This document shows, piece after piece, positions 21,054 through 24,000 of a stretch of DNA of 36,637 nucleotides. The stretch covers positions 36,021 through 72,657 of the forward strand of contig NZ_LIUQ01000036.1 in the NCBI RefSeq assembly GCF_001276715.1, in the 5' to 3' direction. This DNA is from Planktothricoides sp. SR001. GTDB lineage: Bacteria; Cyanobacteriota; Cyanobacteriia; Cyanobacteriales; Laspinemataceae. The first letter of the stretch is position 1. Each line of letters opens with the position of its first letter. A program made the position numbers and the translations under genes. The notes beneath the pieces were generated by a model. It was not told where the DNA came from and did no database searches. It was given only the letters and a program-made list of their open reading frames with translations.

Positions 21054-24000
21054 ATCCCCACTCGCTGGGGATATTAATTGAATGGAAATAAATTCAACAT
21101 CAATTGCGGCGAATTAACTTGTCCTGAATCCCCACTCGCTGGGGATATTAATTGAATGGAAATGCCACTCAATACAGAAGAAGTTACTCCGATATCGAAT
21201 CCCCACTCGCTGGGGATATTAATTGAATGGAAATCAAAATATAAAATGCTAAATAGAGGGTTCCGCCCAGATGATCCCCACTCGCTGGGGATATTAATTG
21301 AATGGAAACGTCGAAGTTTTGATTAACAACTGGGTTTTGTAGTCAAATCCCCACTCGCTGGGGATATTAATTGAATGGAAACATATCTACTGGCTTATTT
21401 TCTTCTAAGTGTATAAATGCTATCCCCACTCGCTGGGGATATTAATTGAATGGAAACAAGACCAAAGCGAAAAGTTACGCCTTGCAAAATCCTCTATCCC
21501 CACTCGCTGGGGATATTAATTGAATGGAAACTCGTCATTAGCCATACCAGCAAAGGGCTTAGGAGTAGAATCCCCACTCGCTGGGGATATTAATTGAATG
21601 GAAACTTAAGTTAGACATTGGTCTTTCTCCTAAGTACGTTATAGAATCCCCACTCGCTGGGGATATTAATTGAATGGAAACAAGTTGTAGGGTACACGCA
21701 TACCGGGCTTAAGAGTATCCCCACTCGCTGGGGATATTAATTGAATGGAAACAGTACTTTTTAACCGGCTGACTTGAAAGACTAGACGAGACTGAACATC
21801 CCCACTCGCTGGGGATATTAATTGAATGGAAACGTATGGTCTCCGTTACGACTATACTAGCTTCTGTTACAATCCCCACTCGCTGGGGATATTAATTGAA
21901 TGGAAACAAACAAAAAGGCATTGCAAAAGCAATGCCTTTTTGTTATCCCCACTCGCTGGGGATATTAATTGAATGGAAACTCCACATTCCTCTATCTGTG
22001 CAATTAAAGTAGGAGATCCCCACTCGCTGGGGATATTAATTGAATGGAAACATTACATGGCCTGTCTAGATTGGAAAAAAGATAACAATCCCCACTCGCT
22101 GGGGATATTAATTGAATGGAAACGTCTGCTAGGGTCATCCCTAGCTCCTGACTTTGATATCCCCACTCGCTGGGGATATTAATTGAATGGAAACTGCTTT
22201 TTTGATTTCAATGGAAGTACCATCTGGAAATCCCCACTCGCTGGGGATATTAATTGAATGGAAACCTTCCAGTTCATCGAATCCTTTAAGCAAAGCATTT
22301 TTCCACAATCCCCACTCGCTGGGGATATTAATTGAATGGAAACACTTCAGGCTCAGTTCAACGTGAAAATGCCTACGATATCCCCACTCGCTGGGGATAT
22401 TAATTGAATGGAAACTTAATTAATTACTTGATAACCATTGCTCTCTAAGTCCATCCCCACTCGCTGGGGATATTAATTGAATGGAAACCTTCGTCTATTT
22501 TCGCCTCTAATGCTTTTGCTTCTTATCCCCACTCGCTGGGGATATTAATTGAATGGAAACTTATAAGCGGATATGAATGTGGACACAGAAGCGATCGCGG
22601 AATTTAATCCCCACTCGCTGGGGATATTAATTGAATGGAAACAGATAGAGTGGTACTAATTGAAGCAGTCCGCACTCCTATCCCCACTCGCTGGGGATAT
22701 TAATTGAATGGAAACCTACTGCTGGCCACGTAATTACCTGTGTCGGCTACAACAAGATCCCCACTCGCTGGGGATATTAATTGAATGGAAACTAAATTAG
22801 TTCGCAAAGCTGGAGAAGGTCTGGTCGGATTCGCGATCCCCACTCGCTGGGGATATTAATTGAATGGAAACACTTTTTTGATCAGTGCCGTACCAAGCGG
22901 AGTGAAGTACAATCCCCACTCGCTGGGGATATTAATTGAATGGAAACGGTCAAAAATACGGCGAGATAATAAATGGCTTTTAATTATCCCCACTCGCTGG
23001 GGATATTAATTGAATGGAAACCGATTGGTTACAAATTAGGCTGGCTTGAAGTAGATCGCTCCTATCCCCACTCGCTGGGGATATTAATTGAATGGAAACA
23101 TAATCGTAGCTAATGTAGCTACGATGCCTGTTTAAGCAATAGAATCCCCACTCGCTGGGGATATTAATTGAATGGAAACCACTTCAGGTAAGAACCCGTG
23201 AAAGTGGAAAGGAAAGCCATCCCCACTCGCTGGGGATATTAATTGAATGGAAACACTTCGAATACGTCAGCATTCTGACTCCATTCAGGAAGGATAATCC
23301 CCACTCGCTGGGGATATTAATTGAATGGAAACACATAATTTGTATTTAAGTCAATGTAAAGTAGTAGAATCCCCACTCGCTGGGGATATTAATTGAATGG
23401 AAACTCGATTGGCAAAAATATAAGTCTATCTATATAGTGGACTTTTATCCCCACTCGCTGGGGATATTAATTGAATGGAAACATTACTTCTGTGATTGCT
23501 CCTTTTCCATACTGCTGTGGCAGTACGCTATCAAATCCCCACTCGCTGGGGATATTAATTGAATGGAAACTCTGCTGTCCACCCCGATACCCGAAGTGCG
23601 CTATAATATCCCCACTCGCTGGGGATATTAATTGAATGGAAACTTAATTTGAATAGGTTCTATCTGCCTTCGGCAATCCATCCCCACTCGCTGGGGATAT
23701 TAATTGAATGGAAACTCATAGGAATCATCAGGATGACTTGCTAGGTAAGTAGCAAGGACTTCTAAAATCCCCACTCGCTGGGGATATTAATTGAATGGAA
23801 ACTAATTCCTCCACGGTTTGAGCTAGTAGAGTCATCCGAAATCCCCACTCGCTGGGGATATTAATTGAATGGAAACTGACCCCTTTGATGAGCTCTCAAG
23901 TCCTGTGAGGAGAAATCCCCACTCGCTGGGGATATTAATTGAATGGAAACTATAACCCCTTCTATTTTCTCTTCTTGATACCAACAAGGGGATCCCCACT

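Follow-up and report, generated by a model that had tools for sequence, protein, structure and literature searches.

The window, i.e. the whole stretch of 36,637 nucleotides analyzed here, belongs to contig C18 of the 7.1-Mb genome of Planktothricoides sp. SR001 and harbors a long CRISPR array (Table 1). Since the conserved leader stands on its left side, the direction of the array is fixed. Repeats 1 to 3 (21054-21089, 21128-21163 and 21199-21234) end in T and not in C, a change that affects the final base of the crRNA tag, is absent from the other 64 repeats, and seems to have been copied through the latest acquisitions; its confinement to the first three repeats matches the copying of new repeats from the leader end. 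All 55 repeats past spacer 12 are identical to the consensus, and no decay is seen in them. A genome of the same species carries an array of 95 spacers at the same place, none of them identical to a spacer of the window array, so spacer turnover appears to be fast. About 440 bp past the array end lies a single diverged repeat copy (26489-26524, 3 mismatches), perhaps the remnant of an older array. Farther downstream, a radical-SAM/DUF3641 gene (27970-29031) shows weak matches to prokaryotic viperin models, which are most likely due only to the radical-SAM fold, and the stretch 30704-36485 encodes a TPS secretion domain protein of 1000 aa, followed by a 906-aa TPR-CHAT domain protein.

Table 1. 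Positions of the array, its leader and the parts of spacer 12, numbered from the first base of the window
Feature	Position	Strand	Remarks
Leader	20878..21053	+	aligns across all ten compared arrays of the own genome and relatives
Leader promoter TAGACA-17-TATAAT (predicted)	21019..21047	+	11/12; ends six bases before repeat 1
CRISPR array	21054..26051	+	67 repeats of 36 nt, 66 spacers
Newest part	21054..21907	+	repeats 1-12 with spacers 1-11, upstream of spacer 12
Spacer 12, AAACAAAAAGGCATTGCAAAAGCAATGCCTTTTTGTT	21908..21944	+	37 nt, perfect 16-bp inverted repeat, AAAA loop
Core hairpin, GGCATTGC-AAAA-GCAATGCC	21917..21936	+	8 bp, -12.2 kcal/mol
T-tract, TTTTTGTT	21937..21944	+	U-tract of the sense RNA; pairs with the A-tract 21909-21916
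Older part	21945..26051	+	55 repeats and 54 spacers, downstream of spacer 12

The scan of 14 of the window's 26 ORFs with 100 aa or more revealed no cas gene. Matching effector genes for a type III-B array are present in the genome, beside a sister array on contig C95, with one base of difference between its main repeat and that of the window array. This sister locus comprises cas1 (330 aa), a Csx1-like gene, a gene for a 668-aa Cmr6-like protein, cmr5, cmr4, cmr3, and cas10. Cas10 of this locus shares 51% identity with that of the Synechocystis plasmid pSYSA, where cas10 is neighbored by cmr3, cmr4, a RAMP gene of comparable length, a gene as small as cmr5, cas1, and cas2. Based on the near-identical sister repeat and on a Cas10 and gene set like those of pSYSA, the window array is most likely served in trans by the type III-B system of contig C95.

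The predicted transcription start of the array coincides roughly with the first base of repeat 1. Seven of the ten leaders retain the -10 box of the promoter, and the three most distant leaders have it altered. For Synechocystis CRISPR3, a start 1 nt before repeat 1 has been mapped (PMC3575380); since the promoter found here abuts repeat 1, the transcript should likewise open with the repeat, and the end of spacer 12 would be reached ~890 nt downstream of the predicted start. With a start at repeat 1, there would be no transcribed leader to carry a boxA-type antiterminator. Within the leader (20878-20965), two interleaved inverted repeats, GCGAGGTTC/GAACCTCGC and AAAATCGCTG/CAGCGATTTT, are accompanied by a T-run and partly kept in related leaders. 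A function as an attenuator or antitermination RNA element was ruled out, as they are located upstream of the promoter; possibly, they are sites for spacer acquisition. Internal promoters that could rescue the downstream spacers gave no signal, with 13 promoter-like sites vs. 14.7 in shuffled sequences. In a phylum survey of 386 genomes, which included few near relatives, the strict leader pattern was found in one, namely the genome studied here.

Spacer 12 has the length, flanks and copy number of an ordinary spacer: it measures 37 nt (array median 38.5), is placed between identical repeats, and occurs in a single copy in the genome. The sequence-only reading had described it as a perfect palindrome with a T-run that takes up 36 of its 37 bases, and this description proved right, as 21909-21924 and 21929-21944 form exactly complementary arms around the loop 21925-21928. 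The number of 54 spacers said to lie downstream is also correct, spacer 12 being number 12 of 66. The A-tract at 21909-21916 supplies the T-tract of the opposite strand; since the T-run belongs to the inverted repeat itself, the order A-tract, stem, and T-tract is found on both strands. Folded alone, the spacer reaches -22.9 kcal/mol (z -6.75), and none of 200 shuffled versions was as stable. Together with its array flanks, it is predicted to form the same hairpin with 15 of the 16 pairs, the outermost one being lost, beside the hairpin of the repeat. Its ensemble energy is -23.2 kcal/mol, and no other spacer among the 66 of the array falls below -15.

The anatomy of an intrinsic terminator, which the earlier reading had recognized, is present: a G+C-containing 8-bp core with a loop of 4 is directly followed by TTTTTGTT (7 T of 8). 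The terminator score d, calculated after d'Aubenton Carafa, is +22.8 on the crRNA (sense) strand and +34.4 on the antisense strand. The sense call depends on taking the 8-bp core as the hairpin. A longest-stem scan of 20500-26600 returned 15 terminator-like sites vs. 6.3 in shuffled sequences, with spacer 12 as its first entry, on the antisense strand only; the sense strand is unlisted because the T-tract is there absorbed into the full 16-bp stem, after which ATCCCC follows. The U-tract is short and interrupted by a G. With 7 T of 8 and a core below -10 kcal/mol, the spacer fits a class reported to behave as terminators in S. elongatus (PMC13289151).

The terminator-like reading is likewise in agreement with the use of the same stem in other genomes. 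The pattern AAAGGCATTGC-N3-8-GCAATGCCTTT is present in 102 stretches of the genome collection. Only 29 of these sites lie within an ORF of at least 300 nt and 73 outside, compared with 419 and 91 of 510 random points, respectively. An ORF ends towards the hairpin at 65 of the 102 sites, all of them among the 73 outside, at a median distance of 19 nt and in 59 cases within 100 nt, figures that are to be read with a pattern that already required A and T flanks and with mechanically called ORFs. Probably, the stem serves as a terminator at these sites, which does not make them the donor. Cyanophages also carry similar bidirectional terminator-like elements, e.g. an 18-bp stem with A/T flanks in Nostoc phage A1. 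Since the same stem recurs in 102 stretches and stands within 100 nt behind an ORF in 59 of them, spacer 12 is most likely a captured natural terminator.

The comparison with phage and plasmid genomes that had been suggested for tracing this origin did not turn up a donor protospacer. Phage and plasmid records contained no full match to spacer 12, the best ones being weak and partial (E 0.5 and 0.1), and in the IMG/VR viral contigs neither the 20-nt core nor the stem pattern nor the two 21-nt halves were matched. In the genome itself, searched at up to 3 mismatches, and in 14 genomes of the family, spacer 12 was recovered only as itself. Of the 102 stretches, those with a 4-base loop were compared, and the closest of these differ in 4 of 36 bases. 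Two candidates were rejected as sources, a match on a Leptolyngbya plasmid that covers 65% of the spacer and lies inside an annotated gene, and L082, the only record titled as cyanobacterial among the 80 matches listed, in which the hairpin is placed within a mechanically called ORF. For the array as a whole, the phage search gave no match at E up to 1, and the phage collection thus seems to represent this host's invaders poorly. Against plasmids, the whole array matched 20 records, chiefly cyanobacterial and mostly with 60-80% identity, which are taken to be other arrays with similar repeats.

The rarity of the hairpin was assessed with spacers from 80 stretches around Cas1 places, among the matches listed from 110 genomes of the same order, together with the loci of the own genome and of near relatives. 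The 95 arrays that passed the filters contributed 3,594 spacers, and 3,537 were kept after dropping duplicates, N-containing spacers, and those shorter than 25 nt. Within this collection, the stem of spacer 12 is unmatched in length (16 bp, followed by 13 and 11), and the spacer ranks second by ensemble energy. By composition, 3,537 spacers should contain about 2e-5 perfect inverted repeats of 16 bp or longer, and stems of at least 14 bp did not arise in any of 200 shuffled sets of the 608 distinct spacers from ten related arrays. Among 39-nt windows of natural DNA, stems of at least 16 bp occurred at a fraction of 0.00002 in five cyanophage sequences (~0.01 expected per 608 spacers) and of 0.00000 in five IMG/VR loci; the own-genome background was dropped from this comparison because it included other CRISPR arrays. 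Measured against real phage DNA, a stem like that of spacer 12 is rare but possible, with odds less extreme than by shuffling, and as the spacer was chosen for being striking, these small probabilities are no test of a prior hypothesis.

Other palindromic spacers came to light in the same collection. The most stable of the 3,537 is spacer 1 of locus L137 (13182-14221; TTTGTAGGGACACGGCATTGCCGTGTCCCTACGAGGT) from a genome of the same genus, and it resembles a dispersed-repeat palindrome. Spacer 4 of L010 and spacer 30 of L140, from two genomes, have a common CTAGAAGA...TCTTCTAG palindrome with shared flanks, a possible element common to the invaders of both genomes. Stems of at least 7 bp occur in 24 of 570 spacers of the window type vs. 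an expectation of 10.9 based on windows pooled from the cyanophages. Taken singly, the cyanophage sequences give values between 2.2 and 19.1 per 570, and with so wide a spread a hairpin-rich source phage could nearly account for the excess; a preference of type III arrays for hairpin uptake is thus a lead only. Loci with a long Cas1, which by the length of this protein are probably RT-Cas1 loci, have such stems in 18 of 471 spacers vs. 8.1 expected, subject to the same spread among cyanophages, and no hairpin of at least 10 bp among the 471.

A natural bidirectional intrinsic terminator of some unsequenced mobile element is supposed to have become spacer 12 via ordinary DNA spacer acquisition into a type III-B array similar to Synechocystis CRISPR3. 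In the pre-crRNA, the spacer would refold to the same hairpin with UUUUUGUU, and at about 21937-21944 transcription would end for some of the RNA polymerases. Full transcription would then be kept for the 11 newer spacers, the 54 older ones would be expressed at a lowered level, with some read-through, and the crRNA of spacer 12 would be a closed hairpin prone to poor loading and degradation. Partial termination before the 54 older spacers is the best prediction that can be derived from the sequence. We hold the account as a whole, i.e. captured bidirectional terminator, III-B array, partial termination, and failed crRNA, with moderate confidence. The sequences themselves show the anatomy of the spacer and its rarity, where leader and promoter lie, the cas operon of the sister array, a genome with neither RT-Cas1 nor a Rho over the cut-off, and the recurrence of the stem behind ORFs; the origin, the termination in the cell, and the crRNA failure are the parts that we infer.

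Several reports on cyanobacterial transcription bear on this prediction. Cyanobacteria are described as lacking Rho (PMC13289151), and no Rho over the cut-off was detected in the present genome (three weak matches, the best with 23.5 bits vs. 509). For S. elongatus, only 22% of the transcription units are reported to end at canonical sites with hairpin and U-tract, and such ends behave as terminators with less read-through the better the U-tract (PMC13289151). According to the same report, native cyanobacterial terminators are of variable strength and often worse than those of E. coli or synthetic ones (PMC13289151). Another study describes strength as varying between species, without a strong correlation between termination and hairpin energies (PMC7843447). 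With regard to the crRNA, the highly structured spacers of Synechocystis CRISPR3 were reported to yield the most degraded crRNAs, worst below -15 kcal/mol, with r 0.56 in one RNA-seq set and a weaker r 0.38 in the other; the main text of that paper does not mention termination (PMC3575380). The 38 spacers of CRISPR3 reach only -18.3 kcal/mol in ensemble energy vs. -23.2 for spacer 12. Since it is the structured spacers of CRISPR3 whose crRNAs degrade most (Scholz 2013, PMC3575380), spacer 12 is probably a poor guide by analogy, which agrees with the earlier expectation of a poorly working crRNA. In synthetic arrays, too, RNA structure is reported to alter crRNA yield (PMC6610086).

The earlier reading had further proposed that a spacer of this kind should be selected against. 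Of the collected spacers, 3,308 could be oriented by the repeat sequence and 229 were left out. Terminator-like spacers (d > 0) number 4 in sense and 2 in antisense orientation, spacer 12 being counted in both, where the phage windows lead one to expect about 1 each. Sense terminator spacers are not depleted, the numbers being small, and the 55 downstream repeats are free of decay, so that visible selection against such spacers is not supported. The intact repeats are equally compatible with a recent acquisition, with leaky termination, or with old spacers that are dispensable.

Among the alternatives to partial termination, a captured terminator that is nearly silent in the array, with read-through and expression of the 54 downstream spacers about as elsewhere, deserves the most attention, although it is considered rather unlikely. 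The variable and at times weak native terminators of cyanobacteria (PMC13289151, PMC7843447) would accommodate it, as would the missing sense-strand entry in the longest-stem scan, the undepleted sense terminator-like spacers, and the intact repeats downstream of spacer 12. However, these repeats only tell that the older part of the array has been retained, as would also be the case if spacer 12 was acquired recently, the sense score of the core hairpin is clearly positive, and its U-tract and core energy correspond to the working class of S. elongatus (PMC13289151). It is quite improbable that the captured terminator has been retained for a benefit, as a governor limiting the pre-crRNA to the 11 newest spacers and leaving the older 54 as a re-activatable DNA store. 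If so, scarce Cmr complexes would be loaded with current memories, the older spacers could be revived by read-through or by deletion of spacer 12, and the stop signal of an invader would have been turned into a regulatory part of the immune array.

Other readings concern the source of the palindrome. It might have been a mobile-element or dispersed (REP- or MITE-like) palindrome, or another regulatory hairpin, and not a terminator; the 13-bp spacer 1 of L137 and the palindrome common to two arrays show features of this kind. The genome itself lacks a second copy at up to 3 mismatches, though, the design with A-tract and T-tract is typical of terminators, and the same stem stands behind ORFs elsewhere, making a dispersed palindrome improbable. 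The symmetry could also be a by-product, either of a spacer made from a folded single strand or of template switching that perfected a weaker inverted repeat, as the palindrome fills the spacer almost exactly; but since cyanophages naturally contain inverted repeats of 16 to 18 bp, a special process is unneeded and this origin is very improbable. Terminator hairpins are found at the 3' ends of RNA, which would fit a capture from a transcript by reverse transcription, as the sequence-only reading had contemplated. The genome encodes three Cas1 proteins (330 aa at the sister array, a 569-aa Cas4-Cas1, and one in a 340-aa open frame), none long enough for or scored as an RT fusion, and its five RT matches are all on contigs other than those of the Cas1 genes. 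As no RT-Cas1 was found, capture from RNA is unlikely; the lack of hairpins of at least 10 bp at the long-Cas1 loci also argues against it, even with stems of at least 7 bp above expectation there, and it is regarded as hardly credible.

A spacer that is itself an intrinsic terminator was not found described in the literature searched, which included few subscription journals; spacer 12 is filed here as an extreme case of a spacer caught by chance from a terminator. It represents a natural experiment on polarity in CRISPR arrays, since a fixed terminator inside an array of 66 spacers would provide a natural test of the model in which newer spacers are more expressed (PMC5749868). It also points to a possible cost of random spacer capture, namely that the stop signal of an invader blunts the memory behind it. 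For array design, screening of spacers for intrinsic terminators is worth including.

Compared with known systems, the array resembles CRISPR3 of Synechocystis sp. PCC 6803 (III-B, also named III-Bv; pSYSA), which has a related repeat ending in ATTAATTGATTGGAAAC and a like gene set, and the start is at the first repeat in both, mapped in CRISPR3 and predicted here. As in bidirectional Rho-independent terminators, spacer 12 presents A-tract, stem, loop, and T-tract on both strands; it differs from the usual Rho-independent terminators in that it sits as a spacer within a CRISPR array. An advantage of newer spacers, as predicted here, has also been described for premature termination in E. coli arrays, which involves Rho and antitermination (cited in PMC10883916), and for the hairpin-polarity model, in which promoter-near newer spacers are favored over older ones (PMC5749868). 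As reported, those cases act by Rho, proteins, or repeats, whereas here a single spacer would act at a fixed point. Upstream Rho-independent terminators of type II-C systems likewise limit CRISPR transcription (PMC12080349). According to that report, they are located outside the array and block unwanted extra crRNA, whereas spacer 12 lies inside the array.
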